DNA of 64,000 nt from Devosia sp. Lineage in GTDB: Bacteria; Pseudomonadota; Alphaproteobacteria; Rhizobiales; Devosiaceae. The stretch is from positions 1 through 64,000 of the forward strand of contig NZ_JACZKG010000003.1 of NCBI RefSeq assembly GCF_014860165.1, read 5' to 3'. Position numbers and translations under genes: made by a program. Below, in pieces: positions 14,372-64,000 of the stretch. The notes under the pieces are model-generated. The model was not told the origin of the DNA and did not search any database. It saw nothing but the letters and a program-made list of their open reading frames with translations. How positions within the stretch are numbered: the stretch's first letter is position 1; the number at the start of each line of letters is the position of its first letter.

Positions 14372-14598
14372 CCAGACGGCTTTGGGGGATCGCTGGCGCA
14401 TGTCGATTGTCCATGAACGGCGGGGCGTTTGAGATGATTGCGATTGTCCGCCAGTTCGTATGTCAGTCTGAGACCCGCGCGCTGCGTAAATGACAGGTGC
14501 TATGGTTTTCTGTCGTATTCACTTTATATGCTTCGCGGTGATGCCGCCGCCGGTTCAAACCGCCCGGCTTTCTGTTTATGTCCATAGGGAGTTGCCTC

Positions 14599-16572
14599 AT
14601 GTCGATCGAATTGGGGCATTTCGCATTGGTACTCGCCTTCGCCATAGCTGCCGTCTCGACGATCGGCGGTTATGCGTTCTGGCGGCCCGGCCAGCGCATC
14701 GCCATGGTGCTGTGCCAGGGAGCCGTGCTGCAATTCGTGCTGGTCACGGTGGCCTTCCTGGCACTGATCCAGGCCTTCGTCACCTCGGACTTCAGCCTGG
14801 CGTTGGCCGTCAACAATTCCCATTCGCTCAAGCCCCTGCTGTTCAAGATCTCCGGCGTCTGGGGCAATCACGAGGGCTCGATGCTCCTCTGGATCCTCAT
14901 CCTCGTCGCCTTCGGCGCCATGGTCGCTGCCTTCGGCCGGCGCCTGCCCAACGACCTGCTGGCGCTGGTGTTGGCGACGCAGAGCCTGCTCACCGCGGCC
15001 TTTGCCGGCTTCACGCTGTTCACCTCCAATCCGTTCGAGCGCGTCTTTCCGCCCCCCTTCGAGGGCAATGACCTCAATCCGGTCCTCCAGGATATCGGTC
15101 TCGCCATCCATCCGCCGCTGCTCTATGCCGGCTATGTCGGCTTCTCGATCTGCTTCTCTTTCGCGGTGGCTGCGCTGATCTCGGGCCGCATTGACCAGGC
15201 CTGGGCGCGCTGGGTGCGGCCCTGGACCATGCTGAGCTGGACCTTCCTCACCCTGGGCATCGCCATGGGCTCCTACTGGGCCTATTACGAGCTCGGCTGG
15301 GGCGGCTGGTGGTTCTGGGATCCGGTGGAAAATGCCAGCTTCATGCCTTGGCTCGCCGGCACGGCCCTACTGCATTCGGCGCTGGTGATGGAGAAGCGCA
15401 ATGCGCTCAAGATCTGGACGATTCTTCTGTCCATCATCACCTTCTCCCTGTCGCTGCTCGGTACCTTCCTGGTCCGATCCGGCATCCTCACCTCGGTCCA
15501 TACCTTCGCCAGCGATCCGACGCGCGGGCTGGTGATCCTGACGCTGCTGGCGCTGGTCATTGGCGGCGCCTTCATGCTCTTCGCGCTACGGGCCTCTTCC
15601 TTGCGGCAGGGCGGTCTCTTCGCGCCGGTCAGCCGCGAGGGCGCGCTGATCCTCAACAACCTGTTCCTCGCCAGCGCCCTTGGCGCCGTGCTGGTCGGTA
15701 CGCTCTATCCGCTGCTGCTCGATGCGCTGACCGGCACCACCATCTCGGTCGGGGCGCCTTTCTTTAATCTCACCTTCGGCGCGCTGATGTCGCCACTGCT
15801 GCTGGTGCTGCCCTTCGGGCCGCTGCTGGCGTGGAAACGGGCCGATATCGTCGGGGCAGCGCAACGGTTGATCGGAGCGGCGGCGCTGGCGATCTTCTGC
15901 ACCATCCTCATCTCGGCGCTGGGTGGCGTGTCGATTTCACTGGCGCCGCTGGGCCTGCTGCTCGGCTTCTGGGTCGCCTTTGGCGCCGTCGCCGAACTGA
16001 TCGACCGCAGCAAGCTGGGCCGCATTCCCTTGGTGGAGAGCTGGCGTCGGCTCGTCGGCCTGCCGCGCTCGGCCTGGTCGACGGCTTTGGCGCATTTCGG
16101 CATCGGCATCACCGTGCTCGGCATCGTCGCCACGTCCGCCTGGGAAACCGAACTGGTGACCACGCTCAATCCGGGGGAAAGCGCCGAGCTTTCGGGCTAC
16201 ATCGTCGCCTTCGACAGTTTCGAGCAGGTGCCAGGCCCCAACTATGTTGCCGATGAGGGGCACTTTACCGTTACGTCGCCTTCCGGCGACACTCGACAGC
16301 TCACCGCCGAACGTCGCACCTATGTCGCCAGCGGCATGCCGACCACCGAGGCGGCAATCGAAACTTACTATCTCTCTCAACTCTACCTCCAGCTCGGCGA
16401 GCCGCTGGACACGACACATGTCATCCGTGTCTGGCACAAGCCCTACATCACCCTGATCTGGTTTGGTGCGATATTGATGGCTGCAGCGGGGGTGCTCTCC
16501 CTCTCCGATCGCCGCCATCGTATTGGAGTGCCGCGCGTGTCGGTCAGAACCATTCGGCAACCCGCTGAATGA
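14599..16572 (+). CDS. ccmF: Cytochrome c heme lyase subunit CcmF
   Basis: A 657-residue polytopic protein of the System I cytochrome c maturation pathway, where it attaches heme to apocytochrome thiols. The heme-handling signature GGWWFWDPVENASFMPW is intact near residue 240, along with GNHEGSMLLW, conserved periplasmic histidines and about 15 membrane helices. AGGGAG precedes the ATG at 14599. The companion genes (ccmABCDE, ccmH) are absent, so this is a detached copy that may supplement a chromosomal set, plausibly for the cytochromes in this window. Confidence 0.92.
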   Translation: MSIELGHFALVLAFAIAAVSTIGGYAFWRPGQRIAMVLCQGAVLQFVLVTVAFLALIQAFVTSDFSLALAVNNSHSLKPLLFKISGVWGNHEGSMLLWILILVAFGAMVAAFGRRLPNDLLALVLATQSLLTAAFAGFTLFTSNPFERVFPPPFEGNDLNPVLQDIGLAIHPPLLYAGYVGFSICFSFAVAALISGRIDQAWARWVRPWTMLSWTFLTLGIAMGSYWAYYELGWGGWWFWDPVENASFMPWLAGTALLHSALVMEKRNALKIWTILLSIITFSLSLLGTFLVRSGILTSVHTFASDPTRGLVILTLLALVIGGAFMLFALRASSLRQGGLFAPVSREGALILNNLFLASALGAVLVGTLYPLLLDALTGTTISVGAPFFNLTFGALMSPLLLVLPFGPLLAWKRADIVGAAQRLIGAAALAIFCTILISALGGVSISLAPLGLLLGFWVAFGAVAELIDRSKLGRIPLVESWRRLVGLPRSAWSTALAHFGIGITVLGIVATSAWETELVTTLNPGESAELSGYIVAFDSFEQVPGPNYVADEGHFTVTSPSGDTRQLTAERRTYVASGMPTTEAAIETYYLSQLYLQLGEPLDTTHVIRVWHKPYITLIWFGAILMAAAGVLSLSDRRHRIGVPRVSVRTIRQPAE

Positions 16573-39525: not shown

Positions 39526-40167
39526 ATGATGAATAAACTCGGAATCGCCTGGCTAGCGGCCGGCGGAATAGTAGTGCTTACGGGCGTAACGGCATTGGCC
39601 CATGGCGGCGCCACCGGTATTGTCGGTGAACGCATGATGGGCATGATGATGCTCAGTGAGCAGGTAAAGCTCCTGGCGCCGCTTTTTGCCGATGGAGAAC
39701 CTGTGGATCCAGTGCTCCTCGCAGAGGCCGCCACGATGATCGAAATGCACGCCGGCCGGGCGATGACTGACCTGTTTCCTGAGGGTAGCCTCGAAGCGCC
39801 ATCCGAAGCGAAGCCAGAAATTTGGGACAGGTGGCAGGAATTTACGTCATACGCTGATCGCCTTGGAATGCTCGGTGCAGAGTTAGCCGCGGTCGCTCGA
39901 CCGGCAGAAGCAAAACTTGCCGATATCGCCGCGCCAGTCCCGGCACCGCCAGAGCCTGAACGCAGCGAATGGGAGAGATTGGACTTCGCCAGCCTGATGG
40001 GTCTTGCGCCAGCGCCGGCCATTCAAACCGTTAGCATCGACAGTCTGATTACCGGTTCCCTGGGGGACGCGGTTCCCAGAGCTGCGCCAGCGAGCAGGAC
40101 GCAGCAGCAGGTATTTGCCGACGTCACCGCTACTTGCTCATCTTGCCACGCCGCATTCCGGCGCTGA
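39526..40167 (+). CDS. Cytochrome c' / c556-like protein
   Basis: A 213-residue exported protein with a signal helix (LGIAWLAAGGIVVLTGVTA), then HGGATGIVGERMMGMMMLSE, typical of cytochrome c'/c556, and a C-terminal heme site CSSCHAAFRR. The class binds one high- or low-spin heme at CxxCH near the end and is involved in NO binding or electron transfer. An insertion of ~40 Pro/Ala/Glu-rich residues makes it longer than the usual ~150. A diheme cytochrome starts 3 bases after the stop. Confidence 0.85.
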   Translation: MMNKLGIAWLAAGGIVVLTGVTALAHGGATGIVGERMMGMMMLSEQVKLLAPLFADGEPVDPVLLAEAATMIEMHAGRAMTDLFPEGSLEAPSEAKPEIWDRWQEFTSYADRLGMLGAELAAVARPAEAKLADIAAPVPAPPEPERSEWERLDFASLMGLAPAPAIQTVSIDSLITGSLGDAVPRAAPASRTQQQVFADVTATCSSCHAAFRR

Positions 40168-52066: not shown

Positions 52067-53146
52067 ATGCTACTCCGCACGTCCCTGCTCAACGCCGTTG
52101 CCGGTCTTGTGCTCGCAGCTACTTTGGCCTCACCGGCGCATGCGGCCGGTACTCACGCTCACCCCGCCGAGAACGGGACGGCGGATGTGCCGTTGGACAT
52201 CGTTCGTGCACCCACGGATTTGCCGGGACCGCTTGTTGCGCGTGGCCCCGAGACCATCAAGGTCGGCCTGGAAACGGTGGAGGTCACCGGTGCTCTTGCT
52301 GACGGCGCCACCTACCACTACTGGACCTTCAACAGGAAGGTCCCGGGGCCTTTCGTACGGGCACGAGTTGGCGACACCGTGGAGGTGAGCCTGCATAACG
52401 TGGACGACAGCACCGAGCCGCACAGCGTGGACTTCCACGCAGCAACAGGACCTGGGGGCGGGGGCGCTGCCACCCATGCGCAACCCGGCGAAGCAAAGAG
52501 CTTCTCTTTCAAGGCGCTGAAGCCTGGCCTGTATGTCTACCATTGTGCGGTGCCGCTTGCGGCCGAGCACATTGCAAATGGCATGTATGGGCTCATCCTC
52601 GTGGAGCCCGAGGAGGCATTGCCCGCAGTTGACCGGGAGTTTTACGTCATGCAGGGCGAGATCTACACCGCGGAGGAATTCGGTTCCAAGGGAATGCTGA
52701 CGGGCAGCGTTGACCGGCTGCTCGACGAACAGCCGGAATACTATGTGTTCAACGGCGCCGCCGAGGCGCTGACGGGCGACCACGCGCTGAGGGCAGAAGT
52801 CGGAGAAACTGTCAGAATCTACTTTGGAGTGGGTGGGCCAAATAAGTCTTCTAGCTTCCACGTCATCGGGGAGATCTTCGACAAGGTCTACAATCTGGCA
52901 TCATTTGCGACCGAGCCAATGTCCGATGTGGCAACCGTCTCGGTTCCTCCTGGCGGCGCTGCGGTGGTCGATTTAACACTCGAGGTGCCCGGTGAATTTC
53001 TTCTTGTCGATCACGCACTGTCACGGGCTGCTCGTGGCCTTGTTGGCAAGCTCGTCGTCGAAGGAGAGGATGCGCCAGCAATCTTTAGCGCCACGGAGAG
53101 CTCGGAACCTGACCAGTTAGAATCCCACGGCGAGCCAGCACATTGA
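52067..53146 (+). CDS. nirK: Copper-containing nitrite reductase NirK (first copy)
   Basis: A 359-residue periplasmic enzyme reducing nitrite to NO. A Sec-type signal (LLNAVAGLVLAATLASPAHA) is seen. Type 1 copper ligands are His in PHSVDFHAATG, Cys in YHCAVP, His and Met in AEHIANGMYG. Type 2 ligands are the second His of VDFHAATG, the His of YHCAVP and SFHVIGEIF and the His of LVDHALSRA. The catalytic Asp (VDFH) and Ile (HVIG) are conserved. The C-terminal copper site is complete. DUF411 follows after 14 bases. Confidence 0.92.
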   Translation: MLLRTSLLNAVAGLVLAATLASPAHAAGTHAHPAENGTADVPLDIVRAPTDLPGPLVARGPETIKVGLETVEVTGALADGATYHYWTFNRKVPGPFVRARVGDTVEVSLHNVDDSTEPHSVDFHAATGPGGGGAATHAQPGEAKSFSFKALKPGLYVYHCAVPLAAEHIANGMYGLILVEPEEALPAVDREFYVMQGEIYTAEEFGSKGMLTGSVDRLLDEQPEYYVFNGAAEALTGDHALRAEVGETVRIYFGVGGPNKSSSFHVIGEIFDKVYNLASFATEPMSDVATVSVPPGGAAVVDLTLEVPGEFLLVDHALSRAARGLVGKLVVEGEDAPAIFSATESSEPDQLESHGEPAH

Positions 53147-53717: not shown

Positions 53718-53885
53718 GTGAAAACCGCATCATTTCGCGTGGCATGCGGACTGGCCGGGCTGATGCTCGCCGCGCCGGCATTAGCCCGAGTCCAAGGCAC
53801 CCGCTGCCCAGTAATGGAATTCAGGACCTGTGCCCGTATGAGCAGGCCCTTTTTGGCAAGAACGGAGAGAGCGAATGACGGATAA
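53718..53885 (+). CDS. Small ORF with export signal (55 aa, uncertain)
   Basis: GTG start with GGGGAAG upstream. The N-terminus is a convincing signal peptide (FRVACGLAGLMLAAPALA), but the mature part is only ~30 residues (RVQGTRCPVMEFRTCARMSR) and overlaps the next start by 11 bases. It could be the front of a truncated exported gene. Confidence 0.35.
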   Translation: MKTASFRVACGLAGLMLAAPALARVQGTRCPVMEFRTCARMSRPFLARTERANDG

Positions 53886-55047
53886 AAAGGACGATGAGAT
53901 GCACGGGCCGAAGGCGGGCGCGGGTCTCAGCCGCCGCAGCCTGCTGGCTGGATCGGCAGGCTTGACCTTCGCCGGCGCGTTGGGTGGGCAGGCGCTGGCT
54001 CAAGCCCCAGGCGGCGCTGCGGTGAACCGGAGCGCGCATATGTCCTACGCTGGGGCAAACAGCCCTAGCGGCCGCCTCTACCAGGTCAATCCCGGGATGA
54101 CCGAGCATAATGACATTGCCCATGATCCGGCCGAGATCCCGCCTCCGCTCACCCGGCGGGAACCGCAGACCGTCCGCGTCGATCTCGAAACCGTCGAGCT
54201 CGAGGCCCATCTCGACGCCAACAGCACATTCCGCTTCTGGACTTTCAATGCGCGCGTGCCTGGCCCCTTTATCCGGGTGCGGGTCGGCGACACGGTGGAG
54301 TGCTACCTCAAGAACGCCGAAGACAGCTGGATGGCGCATAACGTCGATTTCCATGCTGCCACCGGCCCTGGCGGCGGCGCCGTGCTCACCACGTCCATGC
54401 CGGGCGAGGAACACGCCTTCCGTTTCAAGACGCTTAACCCAGGGCTCTATGTCTATCACTGCGCGGTGCCGCCGGTGGCCATGCATATCGCCAATGGCAT
54501 GTATGGCATGATCCTGGTCGAACCCGAGGAGGGCCTCGCCCCCGTTGACCGCGAATTCTACGTCATGCAGGGCGAAATCTATACCGAGGAGGCATTCGGC
54601 ACGGCGGGCCTGCTCACCGAGAGCTACGACAAGCTGATCAATGAGCGGCCGGAATATTTCGTCTTCAACGGCCACGTCAGTGCGCTCACCGAGCATTTTC
54701 CGCTCAAGGCCAATGTAGGCGAAACCGTCCGCATCTTCTTCGGCGTGGGCGGCCCGAACTTCACCTCCTCCTTTCACGTGATCGGCGAGATCTTCGACCG
54801 CGTGTACCAGGCGGCGTCGCTTACCAGCTCTCCGTTGACCAATGTGCAGACGGTGACGGTTCCGTCTGGCGGCGCGGCCGTGGTCGAATTCAAGTGCGAT
54901 GTTCCCGGCCGCTATGTGCTGGTGGACCATGCCCTGTCGCGTGCCGAGCGGGGTCTAGCCGGCTACCTCATCGTCGAAGGCGATGAGCAACCCGAGATCT
55001 TCGCGCCCATTGGGGAGCCGCCGGATCCTTCGATGTCCGGCCACTAA
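53875..55047 (+). CDS. nirK: Copper-containing nitrite reductase NirK (second copy, Tat-type)
   Basis: A 390-residue enzyme with a twin-arginine signal (LSRRSLLAGSAGLTFAGALG). All copper ligands are present: HNVDFHAATG, YHCAVP, MHIANGMYG, SFHVIGEIF and LVDHALSRA. It is ~55-60% identical by eye to the first copy over the cupredoxin domains but has a longer N-terminus and a different export route. GGAGAGAGCG precedes the ATG. Two intact paralogues side by side suggest different conditions or acceptors. Confidence 0.92.
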   Translation: MTDKKDDEMHGPKAGAGLSRRSLLAGSAGLTFAGALGGQALAQAPGGAAVNRSAHMSYAGANSPSGRLYQVNPGMTEHNDIAHDPAEIPPPLTRREPQTVRVDLETVELEAHLDANSTFRFWTFNARVPGPFIRVRVGDTVECYLKNAEDSWMAHNVDFHAATGPGGGAVLTTSMPGEEHAFRFKTLNPGLYVYHCAVPPVAMHIANGMYGMILVEPEEGLAPVDREFYVMQGEIYTEEAFGTAGLLTESYDKLINERPEYFVFNGHVSALTEHFPLKANVGETVRIFFGVGGPNFTSSFHVIGEIFDRVYQAASLTSSPLTNVQTVTVPSGGAAVVEFKCDVPGRYVLVDHALSRAERGLAGYLIVEGDEQPEIFAPIGEPPDPSMSGH

Positions 55048-56178: not shown

Positions 56179-56192
56179 TTGATGTGGATCAA
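56179..56192. promoter_or_regulatory. Perfect FNR/FixK-type site
   Basis: TTGATGTGGATCAA matches TTGAT-N4-ATCAA at all ten defined bases. It is centred about 41 bases upstream of the ATG at 56227, a position consistent with activation. A Crp/Fnr-type regulator is encoded at 4,792 and another Crp-like at 30,840. Confidence 0.75.
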
Positions 56193-56226: not shown

Positions 56227-56604
56227 ATGAACGCTGTACTTGGCAAATTGCGGACCTTTGGTGTGCTGCTGATCCTGGCGGCGGGCGTTGTACTCGCCGG
56301 CACAGCCTTTGCCGCCGTAGACGGGGCACCGTTTCCAACCGCCGATGAGATGCACCGCGCGGTCGGTGATTTGACGGGCCCCATCGAAAAGGCCTGCGTG
56401 ATCGCGTCTCCCAAGGCTGAGTGTTCGATTTGCTGCCATGACATGGGAAGCTCCCTTTGTTGTGGCCACCTTGTCGCCTTAGGGACTGAAACCAACGCTG
56501 GCCCATCCGTTGTTCGCCTCTTTGTGACGGGCCCGTGGATGCCCGTCGCCATGTACGACGCGCACCTAGAAGTCGGTAAGCGGCCTCCCCGTCACGCAGT
56601 CTAG
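56227..56604 (+). CDS. Small exported Cys-rich protein with RPPR tail (125 aa)
   Basis: MNAVLGKLRTFGVLLILAAG begins an export signal. The mature part contains CVIASPKAECSICCHDMGSS and LCCGHL, six cysteines in 30 residues, and ends GKRPPRHAV. It is downstream of a perfect FNR-type box, so it may be induced without oxygen. It is one of the five small exported proteins with Pro-Pro tails. Confidence 0.6.
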   Translation: MNAVLGKLRTFGVLLILAAGVVLAGTAFAAVDGAPFPTADEMHRAVGDLTGPIEKACVIASPKAECSICCHDMGSSLCCGHLVALGTETNAGPSVVRLFVTGPWMPVAMYDAHLEVGKRPPRHAV

Positions 56605-56755: not shown

Positions 56756-57082
56756 ATGCGCGCTTTTAGAACCCTATCCATCGCTGCTCTTGCTTTCGCT
56801 TTGGCTCATCCCGTGATGGCTCAAGATGATCCCCATCACCCTGCCGGGGCGGAGGTGCCCGCCGCCGAGGCCCCGGCAATTATCGAAGCGCCGGCAGACA
56901 AGTCTGAAACCCCCGGACCAAACGCTCCGGCGAACCCGATGATGGGCTGTGCGGACATGATGGGCATGATGGCGATGATGCAGTCCATGCAGACGATGCA
57001 AATGGAGATGATGCGGCAGATGCTGGAGATGCAGAAGGCCTTGCCGGCGGCGCCGAGTTCCGGCGAGGAGGCATCGCGATGA
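56756..57082 (+). CDS. Exported Met-rich protein (108 aa)
   Basis: Signal peptide (FRTLSIAALAFALAHPVMAQ), Pro/Ala-rich linker, then MMGCADMMGMMAMMQSMQTM and MQMEMMRQMLEMQKAL, an extremely Met-rich helix. Methionine arrays of this kind bind Cu(I) in the periplasm. AAAGGGAG precedes the ATG. The next gene overlaps its stop by four bases. Confidence 0.75.
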   Translation: MRAFRTLSIAALAFALAHPVMAQDDPHHPAGAEVPAAEAPAIIEAPADKSETPGPNAPANPMMGCADMMGMMAMMQSMQTMQMEMMRQMLEMQKALPAAPSSGEEASR

Positions 57083-57354
57083 CCAATTCCGTCGCGAAAC
57101 GGACGCTATCGGTGCTCGGGCTAAGCGTGGGGACCAGCGCGGCCCTCATCGTGCTGTTCGCGCTGTGTGCTGTCGCAGGCCTGGCCTTTCCTGGCGTTCA
57201 GGCGACCCATGCTTGGGTGACCTTGTTCACACTGGCCCCAGTGACTTCACCGCAGGCCTGGCTAGAAGGCATCTTCTTTAGCTCGGCATTCGGGGTCGTC
57301 GGTGGGTCTATCGTCGCGGCATTGCACAACGCCGTCGCCGCCCGCGGGCTCTAG
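57079..57354 (+). CDS. Small membrane protein, DUF5676-like (91 aa)
   Basis: Two hydrophobic segments (GTSAALIVLFALCAVAGLAF; GIFFSSAFGVVGGSIVAAL) with FPGVQATHAWVTLF between them, resembling DUF5676 two-helix proteins common on metal islands. Translationally coupled to the Met-rich protein by ATGA. Function unknown. Confidence 0.7.
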   Translation: MTNSVAKRTLSVLGLSVGTSAALIVLFALCAVAGLAFPGVQATHAWVTLFTLAPVTSPQAWLEGIFFSSAFGVVGGSIVAALHNAVAARGL

Positions 57355-57405
57355 TAATGGCGGGTCGCCGGGCCTCCCCTTTCCATTTTTGTGAGTGAAC
57401 GATCC

Positions 57406-58773
57406 ATGAGCCTTTCACTATCATTCCTTGGCGGCGCGGGAACCGTCACCGGCTCCAAGTATCTCCTTGAAGACGGCTCAAAGCGAGTTCTCATCGACTG
57501 CGGCCTCTTCCAGGGCCCGCGCGAGCTTCGTCAGAAGAATTGGGACGCTTTTCCCGTAACACCGAGCTCGCTCGATGCGGTGCTGCTTACGCATGCACAT
57601 ATCGACCATTCGGGGTATCTTCCGGCTCTGGTCCGCGACGGCTTTTCCGGCCGCATCTATTGCTCACATGCCACCATGGAGCTCTGCGAAATCCTCCTGC
57701 GCGATAGCGGTTTCCTTCAGGAAAAGGACGCCGAGCTAGCCAACCGGCATGGATACTCGAAACACCGACCGGCCCAGCCACTCTATACCCTGAAGGACGC
57801 CGAGGCCGCGCTGCCGCACCTAAATCCGGTGCCGTTCCACCAGCTCTACAGCGTTCCCGGCGGCGGACCGGAGATCACCCTACGGCGAGCCGGGCACATC
57901 CTGGGGGCAGCCTCGATCGAGTGCCAGTGGCACGGAACCAAGATTGTCTTCTCTGGGGATCTCGGCCGTTTCAACGATGCCATGATGGTCGACCCCGAAC
58001 CGGTTTCGGCAGCGGACTACCTGATCGTGGAGTCGACTTACGGAAATCGCCGTCACGATCCGGTGAACGCGCAGGATGCCCTGGCAGAAATCATAAACCG
58101 CACCACGGCGCGCGGCGGCACCGTGGTGATCCCCGCTTTCGCGGTGGGTCGGGCTCAGTCGCTGCTCTATCACCTGGAGCAGCTTAGCGCCGCAGGGCGA
58201 CTCACGAATGTGTCCGTATTTCTCGATAGTCCGATGGCGATCAACGCCAGCAATATGCTGTGCACACACCTCGATGATCACAGGCTATCGGCGGACGCGT
58301 GCGTCAAGGCGTGTGGTATCGCTACCTATGTGCGCGGGGTCGAGGAATCCAAGGCCCTCACGAACAACCCCATGCCCAAGGTGATTATTTCGGCCAGCGG
58401 CATGGCCACCGGCGGGCGGGTCCTGCATCATCTCAAGCGCTACGCCCCCGACCGGCGCAACACAATTCTCTTTGCCGGCTTCCAGGCGGCCGGGACCCGC
58501 GGCGCCGCAATGGTGGCCGGTGCCGACGCCGTCAAGATTCACGGCGAGTACGTGCAGGTGCGAGCCGAGGTCCAGAACCTCTCCATGCTGTCGGCGCATG
58601 CGGACGCCGATGAGATCATGGTCTGGTTGCGCGGCTTCGCGCGGCCGCCACGCATGACGTTTATCACCCATGGCGAACCTGATGCTTCGGACGCCCTGAA
58701 ACGACGCATCGAGGCCGAGCTCGGCTGGTCCTGCGCAGTGCCGGAACTCGCCCAGCGGGCGGTGCTGATATGA
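57406..58773 (+). CDS. MBL-fold beta-CASP ribonuclease
   Basis: A 455-residue metallo-beta-lactamase-fold nuclease of the CPSF73/RNase J superfamily. The zinc motif THAHIDHSG lies near residues 62-70, with GDLGRF, VESTYGNRRHD, then the beta-CASP insert (RGGTVVIPAFAVGRAQSLLY) and the RMMBL end (SAHADADEIMVWL, THGEPDASDAL). These enzymes cut RNA 5'-to-3' or endonucleolytically. A GTG at 57391 is an alternative start. The next gene starts within its stop codon (ATGA), so it is tightly coupled to the phosphorylase. Confidence 0.92.
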   Translation: MSLSLSFLGGAGTVTGSKYLLEDGSKRVLIDCGLFQGPRELRQKNWDAFPVTPSSLDAVLLTHAHIDHSGYLPALVRDGFSGRIYCSHATMELCEILLRDSGFLQEKDAELANRHGYSKHRPAQPLYTLKDAEAALPHLNPVPFHQLYSVPGGGPEITLRRAGHILGAASIECQWHGTKIVFSGDLGRFNDAMMVDPEPVSAADYLIVESTYGNRRHDPVNAQDALAEIINRTTARGGTVVIPAFAVGRAQSLLYHLEQLSAAGRLTNVSVFLDSPMAINASNMLCTHLDDHRLSADACVKACGIATYVRGVEESKALTNNPMPKVIISASGMATGGRVLHHLKRYAPDRRNTILFAGFQAAGTRGAAMVAGADAVKIHGEYVQVRAEVQNLSMLSAHADADEIMVWLRGFARPPRMTFITHGEPDASDALKRRIEAELGWSCAVPELAQRAVLI

Positions 58774-60344
58774 TGTTACCCTCGCCGGATTCTCATCAGA
58801 CCGCCTCAGCCGCGCCACTGAGGGCAAAGCGTATGGGCGTCCTGACGCTCGACGATCCCATCGTCTTCATGCGCACGGATTGCCATGTTTGCCGTTCGGA
58901 GGGGCTGTCCTCACGTTCGCGAGTCCTGCTTCAGTCGGGAGGCAAGAGTGTGGTCGCGACACTTTACCAGGTGGCTTCCGAGATGCTCGACGCCGACGAA
59001 GCCGGCCTGTCAGAGGCCGCCTGGGACCAGCTCGATGTCGCCGAGGGAGATCCCATCGTCGCCCGGCATCCCAATCCCTTGGCTTCGTTTGCACACGTGC
59101 GCTCCAGAATATTTGGTAGCCGGCTGTCCGAGGTGCAGCTCAGGGATATCATCGGCGATATCGCCGAACGCCGGTACTCGGCGATCGAAACGACCGCCTA
59201 CCTGGTTTCCGGCTCGTCATTCCCGATGGATAACCAGGAGATGCATGCCTTGACCAAGGTGATGGTCGAGCTCGGCGATACCTTGACCTGGCCCGGCAGA
59301 CCTATCGTGGACAAACATTGCGTCGGCGGCCTGCCCGGCAACAGGACGACCCCCATTGTCGTCGCCATTCTGGCAGCCCTGGGGCTCACGATCCCTAAGA
59401 CATCATCGCGAGCGATAACCTCGCCAGCGGGTACGGCCGATACAATGGAAACGCTGGCGCCCGTCGACCTCGACCTTAGGACCATTCGCCAGGTGGTGGA
59501 ACAAGAAGGTGGCTGTGTCGTCTGGGGAGGGGCCGTCCGCCTTAGTCCGGCCGATGACCTACTGATCCGGGTCGAAAGGGTCCTCGATCTCGACTCCGAG
59601 GGCCAGCTTGTAGCGTCCGTACTTTCCAAGAAGGTCGCGGCCGGCGCCACACATCTCGTGCTCGACATTCCTGTCGGGCCGACGGCAAAGATCCGAACAT
59701 CGGCCGCTGCCGCCGCGCTTGCCAGCAAGCTCGAGGGCATCGCGGGTCAGTTCGGGATCACCACGAAGGTTGTGGTCTCCGATGGAAGCGAACCAGTCGG
59801 CTTCGGAATTGGGCCGGCCCTCGAGGCCCACGATGTCCTGGCGGTGCTTCAACTGACCCCGGGATACCCCACGGATCTGCACTTGCGTGCCTGCACGCTT
59901 GCGGGCGCCGCCCTGGAAATGGTCGAGCGAGCAGCTCCAGGCACCGGCGTTGCCGTGGCCGCACAAGCAATCGCCGACGGCAGCGCCTGGTTAAAGTTCC
60001 AGCGCATTTGCGAGGCTCAGGGTGGCATGCGCGCTCCTCCAGTGGCGGCACTCACGCAGCCGCAACTTGCGCAGTCGGGCGGATATGTCACGGCGATCGA
60101 CAACCGCAAGATTGCGCGCGTCGCCAAACTCGCTGGTGCTCCGGGAATTCCAGCCGCCGGCGTCAGGATGTTTGCCCGGGTGGGCGAGAAGGTATCGGCT
60201 GGCCAGCCACTCTACACCGTACATGCCGATACTGGCGGTGAGCTTCAATACGCCCTGGATTATGTGTCCGCCAATCCGGACATCATCCGCGTCGGCGATC
60301 AGCGCAACGGTGCTCGGCCAACAATAGGAGACGGCAATGACTGA
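58770..60344 (+). CDS. Archaeal-type thymidine/AMP phosphorylase family protein
   Basis: A 524-residue enzyme of the nucleoside/NMP phosphorylase family with the N-terminal domain found in archaeal AMP phosphorylases, longer than bacterial DeoA (~440). Substrate motifs are VDKHCVGGLPGNRTTPIVVA (residues ~180-199) and SSRAITSPAGTADTMETLAP (~212-231), which match AMP phosphorylases. The reaction is NMP or nucleoside plus phosphate to base plus ribose 1,5-bisphosphate or ribose 1-phosphate. The exact substrate is not certain. The start overlaps the RNase stop, and the end overlaps the GAPDH gene by 8 bases. Confidence 0.9.
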   Translation: MMLPSPDSHQTASAAPLRAKRMGVLTLDDPIVFMRTDCHVCRSEGLSSRSRVLLQSGGKSVVATLYQVASEMLDADEAGLSEAAWDQLDVAEGDPIVARHPNPLASFAHVRSRIFGSRLSEVQLRDIIGDIAERRYSAIETTAYLVSGSSFPMDNQEMHALTKVMVELGDTLTWPGRPIVDKHCVGGLPGNRTTPIVVAILAALGLTIPKTSSRAITSPAGTADTMETLAPVDLDLRTIRQVVEQEGGCVVWGGAVRLSPADDLLIRVERVLDLDSEGQLVASVLSKKVAAGATHLVLDIPVGPTAKIRTSAAAAALASKLEGIAGQFGITTKVVVSDGSEPVGFGIGPALEAHDVLAVLQLTPGYPTDLHLRACTLAGAALEMVERAAPGTGVAVAAQAIADGSAWLKFQRICEAQGGMRAPPVAALTQPQLAQSGGYVTAIDNRKIARVAKLAGAPGIPAAGVRMFARVGEKVSAGQPLYTVHADTGGELQYALDYVSANPDIIRVGDQRNGARPTIGDGND

Positions 60345-61404
60345 CCCTCGCAAAGTCCGCGTTGCGATCAACGGCTACGGCGTGATCGGCAAGCGCGTGG
60401 CGGACGCGATCATGCTCCAACCCGACATGAGCGTTTCCGGCATCGCGGATGTTGTCGACGATTGGCGAATCCGGTTGGCCGCCGAAAAAGGGTACCGAGT
60501 GTTCGGCGCGACGGTAGAGGCGGTAGCCGCGATGAGCAACGCCGGCATCGCGACGAGCGGGACCCTCGCGGATCTTCTTGCCGATAGCGACATCGTCATC
60601 GACTGCACACCGAAGAACATCGCCGCGGCCAATGTCCCTACCTATCGTGCCGCTGGCGCGAAGCACATTCTGCAAGGTGGAGAAAAGCACGCACTCACCG
60701 GGCATTCGTTCGTCGCCGAAGCGTCTTACGCCAGTGCCGTGGGCGGTTCCAGCACCCGCGTGGTGTCGTGCAACACCACCTCAATCGTGCGGACACTGAC
60801 AGCCCTCAAGAAGGGTGGCCTGCTCGGGTCCGCGAGAGGGACGCTGTTGCGCCGCGCGACGGATCCCTGGGAGAGCCATCAGTCGGGGATAATGAACACC
60901 CTGGTTCCGGAGTCCCGCATTCCGAGCCACCAGGGTCCGGATGCCAAAAGTGTCGACCCCGATCTGGATGTCGTGACGATGGCGGTGAAGGTCCCGCAAA
61001 CCCTTGGCCACCTGCACCTCTGGAACGTCCGGCTTACCAGGCCCGCCGAAGTGGCAGAAGTCCTGGACCTTTTTCGAGCCTCCAGCCGCATAGCGCTGAT
61101 CCGTAGTGACGCGGGGCTGCCGGCACTCAACAGCATCAAAGAGTGGATGCTCGACCTCGGGCGGCCGCACGGGGACCTCTATGAGGTTGCGTTGTGGGAG
61201 GACATGCTGACTGTTGAGGGCGATGAGCTCTTCTACGCCTACATGGTCGACAACCAGGCGATCGTCATCCCGGAAACCATCGACGCCATTCGAGCGCTTT
61301 GCGGGCTTGAGCGGGAGGCGGCGTCCTCGATTGCCATCACCAACGCGCCTTTAGGGATTGGCAAGCTCGTCGCTCGGCCCGACCGACAGGCTGATGCCCC
61401 ATGA
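60337..61404 (+). CDS. Type II (archaeal-type) glyceraldehyde-3-phosphate dehydrogenase
   Basis: A 355-residue enzyme. The Rossmann start KVRVAINGYGVIGKRVADAI and catalytic Cys145 in RVVSCNTTSIVRTL mark the phosphorylating archaeal GAPDH (type II), distinct from bacterial GapA (SCTTNC). It oxidises glyceraldehyde 3-phosphate to 1,3-bisphosphoglycerate with NAD(P). Its presence in a bacterium, coupled to an archaeal-type phosphorylase, is unusual. The following gene overlaps it (ATGA). Confidence 0.9.
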   Translation: MTDPRKVRVAINGYGVIGKRVADAIMLQPDMSVSGIADVVDDWRIRLAAEKGYRVFGATVEAVAAMSNAGIATSGTLADLLADSDIVIDCTPKNIAAANVPTYRAAGAKHILQGGEKHALTGHSFVAEASYASAVGGSSTRVVSCNTTSIVRTLTALKKGGLLGSARGTLLRRATDPWESHQSGIMNTLVPESRIPSHQGPDAKSVDPDLDVVTMAVKVPQTLGHLHLWNVRLTRPAEVAEVLDLFRASSRIALIRSDAGLPALNSIKEWMLDLGRPHGDLYEVALWEDMLTVEGDELFYAYMVDNQAIVIPETIDAIRALCGLEREAASSIAITNAPLGIGKLVARPDRQADAP

Positions 61405-61880
61405 CCAAAGGTCCATGGAATATGTCGGCCGTCCTTCTCTCGGTCGCCGGCCTGCTGGTGTCCGGGATCGGCGTCTACTTTCTTGCCTTCCGTCCGGCGC
61501 TGCTGCCCGAGGATATCCGGTTCATCGGGTTCTCGCCGACAGAGGTCGAGCAACTGGGTCCAAGATTGGGGCCGTGGCTGTCCAATGTCTTTCACGTGCT
61601 GGGCGGCTTTGCCCTGGCGACGGGCGTTGTAACCATCGCGTTGGCCGCCACGTCGTACCGCGCAAGGAGCCCGGCAGCCGTGCTGGCCGCCTCGCTGGGA
61701 GGCACGGTCTCGATCGTTCTGATGGCGATAGTCAACTTCTCCATCAACTCCGACTTCAAGTGGCTACTCGCCGGCTTCGCGCTCGTCTGGGCGAGCAGTC
61801 TCGTGGCTTTCGCCTTCGAAGTGCCGATCAGTCTTGCGCAAGAGACAAACCCATCAATTCATAGAGGAAAATGGAAATGA
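61401..61880 (+). CDS. Four-helix membrane protein (159 aa)
   Basis: Four hydrophobic segments (AVLLSVAGLLVSGIGVYFLA; NVFHVLGGFALATGVVTIAL; LGGTVSIVLMAIVNFSI; LLAGFALVWASSLVAFAF). The ~30-residue hydrophilic loop contains EDIRFIGFSPTEVEQLGP. No recognised family. Coupled on both sides by overlaps (ATGA with GAPDH; four bases with the oxidase). Function unknown. Confidence 0.75.
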   Translation: MTKGPWNMSAVLLSVAGLLVSGIGVYFLAFRPALLPEDIRFIGFSPTEVEQLGPRLGPWLSNVFHVLGGFALATGVVTIALAATSYRARSPAAVLAASLGGTVSIVLMAIVNFSINSDFKWLLAGFALVWASSLVAFAFEVPISLAQETNPSIHRGKWK

Positions 61881-63256
61881 AACGTCGTCAATTCGTAACA
61901 GGGCTCGTTGCCGGCACGGCCGCCCTGTCTCTCCCACCCGCATTCTTGCGGTCGGCCTATGCGGCCCAACCCTCCACCGCCACCCCGCTCAGTATCGTGC
62001 GAAGGACGATCGAAGTGAATGGGAGGGCCGCCAGCGTCTTTGGGCTAGAGCAGGCCGACGGCTCAACAGGGCTGCGCCTGCGGGCCGGCGAACCTTTCAA
62101 CGTCCTGTTGCGCAACGAGACTGCTGAGCAGACCATCATCCATTGGCACGGGCTTACGCCGCCCTGGCCGAGCGATGGTGTTCCCGACGCCCCGCTGCCC
62201 CTGATCAACGCAGGCATGGAACGCGTATTCGAGTTCCCCCTTGAAACGCCCGGCACGCACTGGATGCACGCTCATACGCTCCAGGAACAAATGCTGTTGG
62301 CCGCCCCCCTGATTGTCGAGGATCCGGCGGATGATGGGCGCGATGAGCAGGAGGTGGTCATTCTCCTCCATGACTTCTCCTTTGCCTCGCCGGAGGAATT
62401 GCTCGCTGGCCTGGCCAAGCCTGCGGATGCCATGGCGCCGATGGACCACGGCGGAATGGCGATGGACCTTAACGATATCGAATACGACGCCTACCTCGCC
62501 AATGATCGAGCCCTGGACGACCCCGAAGCCGTCAAAGTCGAGCGCGGTGGCCGCATTCGGGTTCGTATCATCAACGGCGCCACAGCCACAGCGTTCACCA
62601 TCGACCTCGGTGCGATCAATGGTCAGTTGGTGGCAGTGGATGGGCAGAACATCGAGCCGGTCGGCGGGCGCCGCTTTCCCATCAGCATGGGTCAGCGCCT
62701 CGACATCCGTGTCGAACTCCCGAGCGAGGGAGGGCCGTTCCCGATTCTGGCTCTTCGGGAGGGCTCTGCACACCGGACCGGCGTCATCCTGCAGCCACCA
62801 GGTTCCCAGATAGCCAGGGTGGCATCTATAGGCAGTGAAGACGGGCCCATCCTCGATCTGGCGCTCGAGGCAGAGCTACGAGCCATCGCGCCGCTCCCGA
62901 CCCGTGTTGCCGACAAATCGTTTGAGATGGTGCTCAACGGCGACATGGCGAAGTACCGATGGAGCCTTGGCCTACGGGAGCCGATCATCGCTGCGTCGGG
63001 TGACCGGGTCGAGGTCACGATGACCAACATGAGTATGATGGCCCATCCGATGCATCTGCACGGCCACCATTTTCAAGTGGTTGCGATCGACGGAAAGAGG
63101 ATTGCTGGTGCAGTCCGCGACACCGTCCTCATACCGCCGAGGCGGGCGGTTACCATTGCGGTCGATGCGAGCAACCCCGGGCAATGGGCATTCCACTGCC
63201 ACCATCTGTACCACATGGCGACCGGCATGATGTCGACCTTCGGCTATCAGACCTGA
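61877..63256 (+). CDS. Multicopper oxidase (CueO/CopA-type), Tat-exported
   Basis: A 459-residue periplasmic copper oxidase with a Tat signal (MKRRQFVTGLVAGTAALSLP). Four copper motifs are present: IIHWHGL, THWMHAHT, HPMHLHGHHFQ and FHCHHLYHMATGM, as needed for type 1 and trinuclear centres. A Met/His insertion (MAPMDHGGMAMD) resembles the Cu(I)-binding segment of CueO. AGAGGAAA lies 8 bases before the ATG at 61877. It is the fifth gene of the RNase operon and likely detoxifies Cu(I). Confidence 0.92.
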   Translation: MKRRQFVTGLVAGTAALSLPPAFLRSAYAAQPSTATPLSIVRRTIEVNGRAASVFGLEQADGSTGLRLRAGEPFNVLLRNETAEQTIIHWHGLTPPWPSDGVPDAPLPLINAGMERVFEFPLETPGTHWMHAHTLQEQMLLAAPLIVEDPADDGRDEQEVVILLHDFSFASPEELLAGLAKPADAMAPMDHGGMAMDLNDIEYDAYLANDRALDDPEAVKVERGGRIRVRIINGATATAFTIDLGAINGQLVAVDGQNIEPVGGRRFPISMGQRLDIRVELPSEGGPFPILALREGSAHRTGVILQPPGSQIARVASIGSEDGPILDLALEAELRAIAPLPTRVADKSFEMVLNGDMAKYRWSLGLREPIIAASGDRVEVTMTNMSMMAHPMHLHGHHFQVVAIDGKRIAGAVRDTVLIPPRRAVTIAVDASNPGQWAFHCHHLYHMATGMMSTFGYQT

Positions 63257-63288: not shown

Positions 63289-64000
63289 ATGAAGAACGTG
63301 ACGCTGCAAGTCAGCGATCTCCTCAGCATTTTAGATTTTGCGGCAGTCCAAAAGCGCCTTGGTGCGCTGCCCGGAGTCCAGAGGGTTGCCATGAATGCCG
63401 GGTCCAGCACGGCCAGCATTGCCTTCGACGAAGCTGTTACCAGTCCGGAGCGCCTGGCGCGGGAAATTGAAGCCTGCGGCTTCCATTGCAGAGGCGAGAT
63501 CGCACCCCGGCACGTGTGTGTTCCGGACCAGACCGCTGTCAGCGTCACCGACCCGCGGGCGCCGTCTCACGCCGAACATATGGACCACCGCGCCTCGGGT
63601 CACATCCACCAGGAAGCAGTGTCTCCCAGCCCGAAAGGCAAGCCGGATCACGACGCCATGGCCCACGACATGGGCCATGGCGCGGGCATGGACATGCAGG
63701 ACATGGTCCGGGACATGCGCAATCGCTTCCTGGTCAGCCTCATTTTCACGCTGCCGATACTTGCCATGGATCCGATGGGGCTAGCTGAGCCGCTTTTCGA
63801 GCCCCCCTTTGGCATGAGCATGAACGTCACGATGTTCCTGTTCGCCACCGCGGCGATTATCTACCCGGTTTGGCCGTTCCTCGTCTCCGCTTGGCGTGCC
63901 TTGCGGAACCGCGTGCTCAATATGGCAGTCCTCGTTGTTCTCAGTGTGGGCACTGGCTATCTCTTCAGTGTCGGTTCGACGTTCTTCTTCGATGGGGCCC
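63289..64000 (+). CDS. Heavy-metal P1B ATPase (CopB-like), N-terminal part, runs off window
   Basis: From the ATG at 63289 (GAAAGAGGAA upstream) the frame is open to the window end. The first ~70 residues have an HMA-like fold, but the metal loop is VSDLLSILDF with no CxxC. A His/Met-rich linker follows (DHDAMAHDMGHGAGMDMQDM), then the first helices (FLVSLIFTLPILAMDPMG; FLFATAAIIYPVWPFLVSAW; LNMAVLVVLSVGTGYLFSVG). This fits CopB-type copper ATPases. Catalytic motifs lie beyond the window. Confidence 0.85.
   Translation, partial: MKNVTLQVSDLLSILDFAAVQKRLGALPGVQRVAMNAGSSTASIAFDEAVTSPERLAREIEACGFHCRGEIAPRHVCVPDQTAVSVTDPRAPSHAEHMDHRASGHIHQEAVSPSPKGKPDHDAMAHDMGHGAGMDMQDMVRDMRNRFLVSLIFTLPILAMDPMGLAEPLFEPPFGMSMNVTMFLFATAAIIYPVWPFLVSAWRALRNRVLNMAVLVVLSVGTGYLFSVGSTFFFDGA

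Follow-up and report, generated by a model that had tools for sequence, protein, structure and literature searches.

How might a bacterium use an archaeal-type nucleoside monophosphate (NMP) phosphorylase encoded between a ribonuclease (RNase) and a type II glyceraldehyde-3-phosphate dehydrogenase (GAPDH)? The question arises in a 64,000-nt stretch of Devosia sp. DNA, positions 1–64000 of the 115,137-nt contig NZ_JACZKG010000003.1 (our contig C80), hereafter the window; the genome has a completeness of 99.92% and a contamination of 3.04%. On the forward strand, a beta-CASP metallo-RNase gene (57406..58773; ATG at 57406, with a GTG start possible at 57391) is followed by the phosphorylase gene (58770..60344), whose start overlaps the RNase end by ATGA (4 nt), and by the GAPDH gene (60337..61404), whose start overlaps the phosphorylase end by 8 nt. 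A first-pass annotation had described these three genes and their overlaps as one coupled unit. The open reading frame (ORF) list and family scans confirmed the coordinates and families, and the genes are indeed coupled, but the run is longer than three genes, reaching upstream and, by the ORF list and contig scans, past the window end at 64000. We propose, with a probability of roughly 0.52, that the three genes head an accessory low-oxygen module in which RNA would be converted to pentose phosphate and then to energy without RuBisCO.

Its sequence places the phosphorylase with the archaeal NMP phosphorylases, apart from the DeoA enzymes. It passed TIGR02645 (531.9 bits, cut-off 434.6) and NF003338 (635.4 bits, cut-off 434), models that bear the name "putative thymidine phosphorylase" and describe the archaeal type, and stayed below the DeoA-type models TIGR02643 (135.8 bits, cut-off 570.7) and TIGR02644 (165.6 bits, cut-off 409). 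Identity over aligned columns was 39.9% to the Thermococcus enzyme 4ga5 (4ga5 and 4ga6 we take to be from Thermococcus kodakarensis) and 27.3% to E. coli DeoA; because of the ∼40% identity to a solved enzyme, the fold was taken as settled. The protein also shares with the T. kodakarensis NMP (AMP) phosphorylase TK0352 an extra N-terminal domain and the KTSSRAITSxAGTAD and WGG motifs. When 86 island enzymes (that of the window and its relatives) were compared with 15 DeoA-type enzymes, the DeoA rows being lower-scoring matches and one archaeal enzyme representing its type, 62 columns split the two groups; two of these were C-terminal gap columns, and 4ga5 sided with the island enzymes at 41 of the 60 usable ones. 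In a 47-row tree the DeoA types separated at 100/100, relatives fused to PhnN (see below) formed one clade (100/100), and the island enzymes formed another at 94/97, a little short of what the tree program counts as strong support. The lone archaeal row had a long branch and an unsure placement.

The phosphate region of the protein contains K210, R214, T217 and S218. The stretch KTSSRAITSPAGTAD aligned with KHGNRSVSSKSGSSD of the anthranilate phosphoribosyltransferase TrpD, where DeoA has MISGRGLGHTGGTLD, and T217-S218 (GH in DeoA) aligned with two Ser residues of the TrpD loop. According to a review, those two Ser contact the 5'-phosphate of phosphoribosyl pyrophosphate (PRPP), and the loop Lys contacts pyrophosphate (PMC9835598). 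Because of this alignment with PRPP-contact residues of TrpD, T217-S218 are candidate ligands of the 5'-phosphate and K210 is a candidate ligand of a second phosphate.

To see what accompanies the phosphorylase elsewhere, we took 86 loci: the best 80 of 572 confirmed genome loci, five plasmid stretches (22–35 kb), and the whole window contig. Flanks of the genome loci were at most 10 kb and often shorter (stretches up to 21.6 kb each); the plasmid stretches were hand-picked from match lists, and a GAPDH gene on the same record was the reason for choosing four of the five. Locus L024, being without the phosphorylase, was dropped from the census. Of the 86 loci, 74 contained a PRPP synthetase (PRS) gene and 63 the RNase gene; phosphoketolase was encoded in 35, acetate kinase in 19, and type II GAPDH in 13. 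The best 80 genome loci alone gave 68, 58, 30, 17 and 8, respectively. The RNase gene lay upstream on the same strand in 62 loci, and because the phosphorylase start codon stood at a 4-nt overlap in 49 of these and within 20 nt in 61, the coupling of the two genes is not due to chance. With the RNase in 58 of the best 80 genome loci, the coupling noticed in the first-pass annotation is widespread. Where PRS lay downstream (54 loci), its start codon was at most 60 nt from the phosphorylase stop in 51; a Bradyrhizobium metagenome-assembled genome (MAG) locus, L040, has the plain order RNase-phosphorylase-PRS.

GAPDH, which had been taken as the third member of the unit, was rejected as a conserved partner. 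It directly follows the phosphorylase in 2 of the 86 loci, the window and a Devosia MAG (L034) with a 72% identical phosphorylase and the order RNase, phosphorylase, GAPDH, oxidase, P-type ATPase, PRS. It lies in the same stretch in 11 more, so the expectation that the three genes would be found together elsewhere survived narrowly. The usual third gene is PRS, which in this Devosia genome starts at about 65.7 kb of the contig, beyond the window.

The island PRS (about 65.7–66.67 kb of the contig, same strand as the run) passed TIGR01251 (164.9 bits, cut-off 113) and NF005537 (389.9 bits, cut-off 322). We compared 43 genomes that carry the phosphorylase over its cut-off with 37 non-carriers, which were hand-picked and not strictly matched. 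PRS over the NF005537 cut-off was found in 39 of the 43 carriers and in none of the 37 non-carriers (p 1e-18), and 36 of the 40 NF005537 places shared the strand of the phosphorylase and were no more than 250 nt away from it (the exceptions were G387, one G250 copy, our own genome, and G332 on another contig). Carrier G379 has an adjacent PRS below the threshold (299.6 bits, cut-off 322). The remaining three carriers (G402, G475 and G485) have PhnN, a ribose 1,5-bisphosphokinase, in one reading frame with the phosphorylase. Because PRS accompanies the phosphorylase in 39 of the 43 carriers, a sub-threshold PRS in one and a PhnN fusion in three, ribose-1,5-bisphosphate (R15P) and PRPP are probably the linking metabolites, with R15P leaving toward PRPP or ribose-5-phosphate.

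In profile hidden Markov model scans the fusions consist of a PhnN part (TIGR02322, 164–186 bits, cut-off 156) followed by the phosphorylase domain. A fourth fusion, in G344, has a phosphorylase part under the cut-off (409.6 bits, cut-off 434.6). At least three of the four sided with the island enzymes at 42 separating columns and with DeoA at one. The fusion occurs in 13 of 397 genomes of the order (12 full-length alignments, three of which report one TGA, and G475 in two pieces); the other 23 of the 36 matching genomes were without a whole PhnN part. NadC lies 10–65 nt from the fusion (between match edges) in 9 of 15 loci. The other six loci, all of one genus (L196, L198–L200, L202 and L203), have the fusion by apparent cytochrome bc1 genes and not by NadC, as judged by eye from ORF starts. 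Locus L195 (G567) holds NadC with the PhnN-phosphorylase fusion and, ∼6 kb off, an RNase-phosphorylase island pair. We considered and rejected the idea that the fusion belongs to a phn (C-P lyase) cluster: none was noticed among the scanned neighbors, which were NadC or bc1-like, in scans that included no dedicated phn search. E. coli PhnN makes PRPP from R15P (cited in PMC9700705). In the window PhnN is neither fused nor adjacent to the phosphorylase, and the host genome has two separate PhnN copies on other contigs, together with two ordinary PRSs and two strong Gp_dh_C matches besides the island GAPDH. PhnN passed its cut-off in 29 of the 80 genomes, of which 13 were carriers. Among the 39 genomes whose island PRS passed its cut-off, 9 had PhnN over cut-off and 30 had neither PhnN nor R15P isomerase over cut-off.

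Could the island PRS itself handle R15P? Across 71 aligned sequences of this subfamily (NF005537, PRK07199), the motifs FPDxE, RQD, DPHLHRY, KxRxGD and DDI are kept, and a GPDxESxQW signature is present. Its nearest solved structures in sequence are 1u9y, 4twb and 3lpn, each of which bears the name ribose-phosphate pyrophosphokinase and is presumably of archaeal origin; in these we take TGGT to be the ribose-5-phosphate loop. The island loop differs: TGGT was found in 0 of 71 (71 of 74 loops were caught by the motif search), the loop being mostly SSGRT-like, and SSAQT in Devosia. The island PRS may be an ordinary PRS or may act on R15P. That it uses R15P as a direct substrate in place of PhnN, making PRPP from R15P or converting R15P + AMP to ribose-5-phosphate + ADP, is an unlikely proposal in our estimate. 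The latter conversion is the ordinary PRS reaction reversed, with one phosphate fewer. If true, the proposal would account for the near-obligate pairing, for a PhnN fusion taking the place of PRS, for the altered SSGRT loop, and for how 30 of 39 genomes manage with neither PhnN nor R15P isomerase over cut-off. The glycosidic bond of an NMP would then be turned into a phosphoanhydride, a RuBisCO-free, RNA-fuelled form of substrate-level phosphorylation at low oxygen.

The first-pass annotation had tentatively linked the phosphorylase to the archaeal salvage route through RuBisCO, and this was not supported for the Devosia genome. No RuBisCO (PF00016) and no IF-2B-fold protein (PF01008) was matched in the host genome at its 99.92% completeness. 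The R15P isomerase model TIGR00511 was over cut-off in 0 of the 80 genomes compared with 3 of 14 control genomes; weaker matches were present in 39 of the 80 and none in the host genome. The RuBisCO route was rejected for this genome on these three counts. The partners of TK0352 are R15P isomerase and RuBisCO (PMC9700705), neither of which was found in Devosia. In the accessible text of the open-licence literature searched, no description was found of the phosphorylase-PRS pairing as a pathway, or of the PhnN fusion.

The RNase has a Beta-Casp domain (PF10996, 114.7 bits, cut-off 27.7) and an RMMBL domain (PF07521, 63.9 bits, cut-off 21.6), and it stayed below the cut-offs for aCPSF1 (TIGR03675, 249 of 580 bits) and Cas14 (NF045584, 357.8 of 800 bits). 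Residues 13–436 aligned with the RNase TTHA0252 (2dkf; E 1.6e-78), with metal-binding and beta-CASP motifs, as we presume them to be assigned, common to both. From its family, the island protein probably degrades RNA. The GAPDH is type II: it passed NF003251 (432.5 bits, cut-off 185) and TIGR01546 (313.5 bits, cut-off 232.9) and matched 1cf2 over its full length (E 5.3e-78), its catalytic-Cys motif SCNTTS aligning with SCNTTG. The SCNTT motif and the full-length match are common to the type II enzymes 1cf2 and 1b7g, which we take to be archaeal; unlike in the archaeal setting, the Devosia copy sits on an accessory island in a host with two strong type I-like Gp_dh_C matches. In 12 further plasmid loci with type II GAPDH (∼10 kb each, PLSDB gene tables) the phosphorylase was not listed in any; neighbors across these loci included UbiB-like, CBS, GlgP, pfkA, aldolase, phosphoketolase, arginine deiminase and copper genes.

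Taking each step from the enzyme family, the proposed module would run as follows. The beta-CASP nuclease would break RNA into NMPs, and the phosphorylase would convert 5'-NMP + phosphate to base + R15P. R15P would then pass into the PRPP/ribose-5-phosphate pool via the divergent PRS downstream, or via PhnN, and not to ribulose-1,5-bisphosphate (RuBP) and RuBisCO. Phosphoketolase (contig 75318-77690) would split ribose-5-phosphate-derived sugar phosphate into acetyl-phosphate and glyceraldehyde-3-phosphate; acetate kinase (AckA; contig 74125-75321), on the same strand, would yield ATP from the former, and type II GAPDH followed by phosphoglycerate kinase would yield ATP from the latter. These roles of phosphoketolase, acetate kinase and phosphoglycerate kinase are general pathway knowledge. 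ATP would thereby be made without respiration, beside the arginine deiminase pathway encoded in the same run. The substrates, the island PRS reaction, the way the flux runs and what the cell gains are as we infer them.

Is the run controlled by oxygen? A perfect FNR/FixK/Anr-type box, TTGATGTGGATCAA, lies at 56179..56192 on the forward strand, 34 nt before the ATG at 56227, where a small ORF (56227..56604) heads the run. We take TTGAT-N4-ATCAA to be the FNR/FixK consensus; 0.07 perfect matches are expected per window, and 6 of 100 shuffles have one. The 86 fetched loci, with the window contig excluded, gave 17 perfect boxes, spread over 16 loci, whereas shuffled sequence averaged 1.55 and reached at most 4 in 20 shuffles. 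Box positions vary across loci, and in L034 the box is at a similar distance upstream. The box match points to putative FNR/FixK regulation of the run. Two copper nitrite reductase NirK genes (TIGR02376 over cut-off; 52067–53146 and 53875–55047) lie just upstream of the run and fit a low-oxygen island. Further respiratory or nitrosative-stress genes on the contig are a CcmF-type cytochrome c assembly protein (14578–16572) and a cytochrome c' gene (39526–40167).

Published expression data are consistent with such control. The Bradyrhizobium diazoefficiens operon bll3117-bll3116-bll3115 has, by product names, the same three core families (phosphorylase family, PRS and MBL-fold) and is raised in microoxia and FixK2-dependent. 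At 0.5% O2, bll3115, bll3116 and bll3117 were up by log2 2.9, 4.4 and 2.1 at the protein level and 15.4-, 7.7- and 5.1-fold at the transcript level (PMC6515984). The three genes are predicted to be one operon, for which a FixK2 box is given at -74; without FixK2 the transcripts fall 6.6-fold (bll3117) and 30.6-fold (bll3115); the phosphoketolase-acetate kinase pair bll2518-bll2517 is listed alongside under FixK2 (PMC9104804). The gene order differs from that of the Devosia run, and the predicted operon has no GAPDH. The low-oxygen guess of the first-pass annotation fits both the FNR box and the FixK2 control of this like-named operon.

Several points weigh against the proposed module. The phosphorylase stayed below the AMP-phosphorylase model TIGR03327 (448.3 bits, cut-off 535); the archaeal NMP-phosphorylase type read in the first pass stands, the protein may still work like an AMP phosphorylase, and because that cut-off was missed we file the protein under TIGR02645/NF003338, as one that probably works like an NMP phosphorylase (NMP + phosphate to R15P). 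At the 60 usable columns 4ga5 sided with DeoA at 6 and with neither group at 13. No activity of island enzymes was found reported in the accessible text of the literature searched. PRS and PhnN, the two partners, both form PRPP, which the phosphorylase could use. The PhnN domains of the fusions reach only 164–186 bits, with a cut-off of 156. GAPDH, adjacent in two loci, is elsewhere often beside copper or other sugar genes, and phosphoketolase is absent from 51 of the 86 stretches, many of which are truncated. RuBisCO-family proteins were found in 20 of 43 carriers and 10 of 37 non-carriers (p 0.10), so that a RuBisCO step is possible elsewhere. As for regulation, the Bradyrhizobium operon was equated with the island by product names and not by alignment; PMC6515984 places the three genes in a wider group (log2 change of at least 1), outside the 62 proteins that it ranks as most significant, and labels them non-FixK2 targets, whereas PMC9104804 lists bll3115 and bll3117 as FixK2-controlled. 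With 3.04% contamination in the assembly, the contig is presumed to belong to the host.

The rival that survives best holds that the phosphorylase-like enzyme is a PRPP-linked phosphoribosyltransferase in base salvage from degraded RNA. With PRPP from the coupled PRS or the fused PhnN it would join nucleobases, or release them when working in reverse with pyrophosphate. Both close partners (PRS and PhnN) belong to PRPP-forming families, and NadC, which neighbors the fusion in 9 of 15 loci, is a PRPP consumer. K210, which is invariant in the island enzymes and replaced by Met in DeoA types, aligns with the TrpD Lys given to pyrophosphate contact (PMC9835598), and weak TrpD homology is detectable (TIGR01245, E 9.4e-8). 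The same Lys has been assigned to anthranilate binding instead (PMC5537072), and the Thermococcus enzyme, which is the closest relative so far characterized and shares this K and TS, works as a phosphorylase that uses phosphate (PMC8376864, PMC9700705). We regard the transferase as unlikely.

A second rival treats the locus as a copper island, in which GAPDH and PRS would be spare copper-tolerant copies of cytosolic copper targets, and the RNase-phosphorylase pair a separate passenger. The window and L034 share the order GAPDH, multicopper oxidase, P-type ATPase, PRS, and the host already has its two ordinary PRSs and two strong Gp_dh_C matches (type I GAPDH-like). In Staphylococcus aureus, Prs is inhibited by Cu(I), and copper also targets GapA (PMC10249872). 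Three of the 12 plasmid type II GAPDH genes have a heavy-metal or copper ATPase gene as a neighbor, and near one of the three there is cueR as well. Against this reading, PRS also comes after the phosphorylase where the stretch has no match to an oxidase or heavy-metal ATPase (e.g., L036, L040, L048 and L057), four of the 12 plasmid loci have GlgP, pfkA, phosphoglucomutase or phosphoketolase among the neighbors, and the Bradyrhizobium expression data concern oxygen. We regard the copper explanation as unlikely.

An ordinary thymidine or pyrimidine-nucleoside phosphorylase lying in the operon by happenstance is very improbable. It would agree with the database name, "thymidine phosphorylase family," and with a fold and conserved residues common with DeoA types; against it stand the failed TIGR02643 and TIGR02644 matches given above, the 5'-phosphate-site residues that differ from DeoA, the relatives fused to an R15P-kinase-type domain, and a DeoA-type gene already present elsewhere in the genome (contig C21). 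The archaeal route from NMP via R15P and RuBP to RuBisCO, with its missing parts elsewhere, agrees with the phosphorylase type and with the RuBisCO-family protein in 20 of 43 carriers, but is scarcely credible given the negative results above and already refuted for this genome, barring an unrelated isomerase and carboxylase.

The island is accessory. Among 101 genomes (our own, 60 of the genus and 40 of the order), the archaeal-type phosphorylase was found at high score in our own genome, G100 (57%) and G094 (43%) only; the remaining genomes had weaker DeoA-like matches or none. In a sample of 398 genomes from the phylum, 43 had it over cut-off, and G350 has a sub-threshold relative with a long frame. 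In 110 of 72,556 plasmid records the phosphorylase was covered to at least 80% at one place, and the GAPDH likewise in 35. The far end of the contig (103–115 kb) carries genes for an ArdC anti-restriction protein, a ParB-like protein, a strawberry-notch-type helicase and a Toprim protein, which are probably signs of a mobile element.

The rest of the run, all on the same strand, contains the following genes. Before the RNase, a small membrane protein, judged as such by eye (57079..57354), overlaps the upstream ORF ending at 57082. After the GAPDH gene, an ORF at 61401..61880 overlaps it by ATGA and encodes a membrane protein, again judged by eye; Pfam and NCBIfam scans gave no family for either protein. 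A multicopper oxidase gene (61871..63256; PF07731, PF07732 and PF00394) overlaps that ORF and is followed by a heavy-metal P-type ATPase gene, identified by a family match (contig 63289-65664, of which the window holds 63289..64000). Beyond the PRS lie the genes for ArcD, ArcA, ArcB and ArcC (arginine/ornithine antiporter, arginine deiminase, ornithine carbamoyltransferase and carbamate kinase; contig 66736-71421), an MFS protein gene, and, between it and AckA, an ORF of 443 aa (contig 72770-74101) with no Pfam or NCBIfam match. The arginine deiminase set thus sits in the same run as phosphoketolase and acetate kinase; arc genes were also seen in locus L054 and beside one plasmid type II GAPDH gene.

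The first-pass interpretation was half right. New here are the wider operon, the PRS partner, the links to PhnN and NadC, the results that speak against a RuBisCO route in this genome, and the connection with the published FixK2 operon. The name "thymidine phosphorylase family protein" is probably wrong for these enzymes. Their neighbors (the RNase, and the divergent PRS or a PhnN fusion) lead to a concrete prediction of their biochemistry and offer R15P another fate in genomes without RuBisCO. The published microoxic operon of Bradyrhizobium would thereby be tied to a testable function: living off the cell's own RNA when respiration stops.

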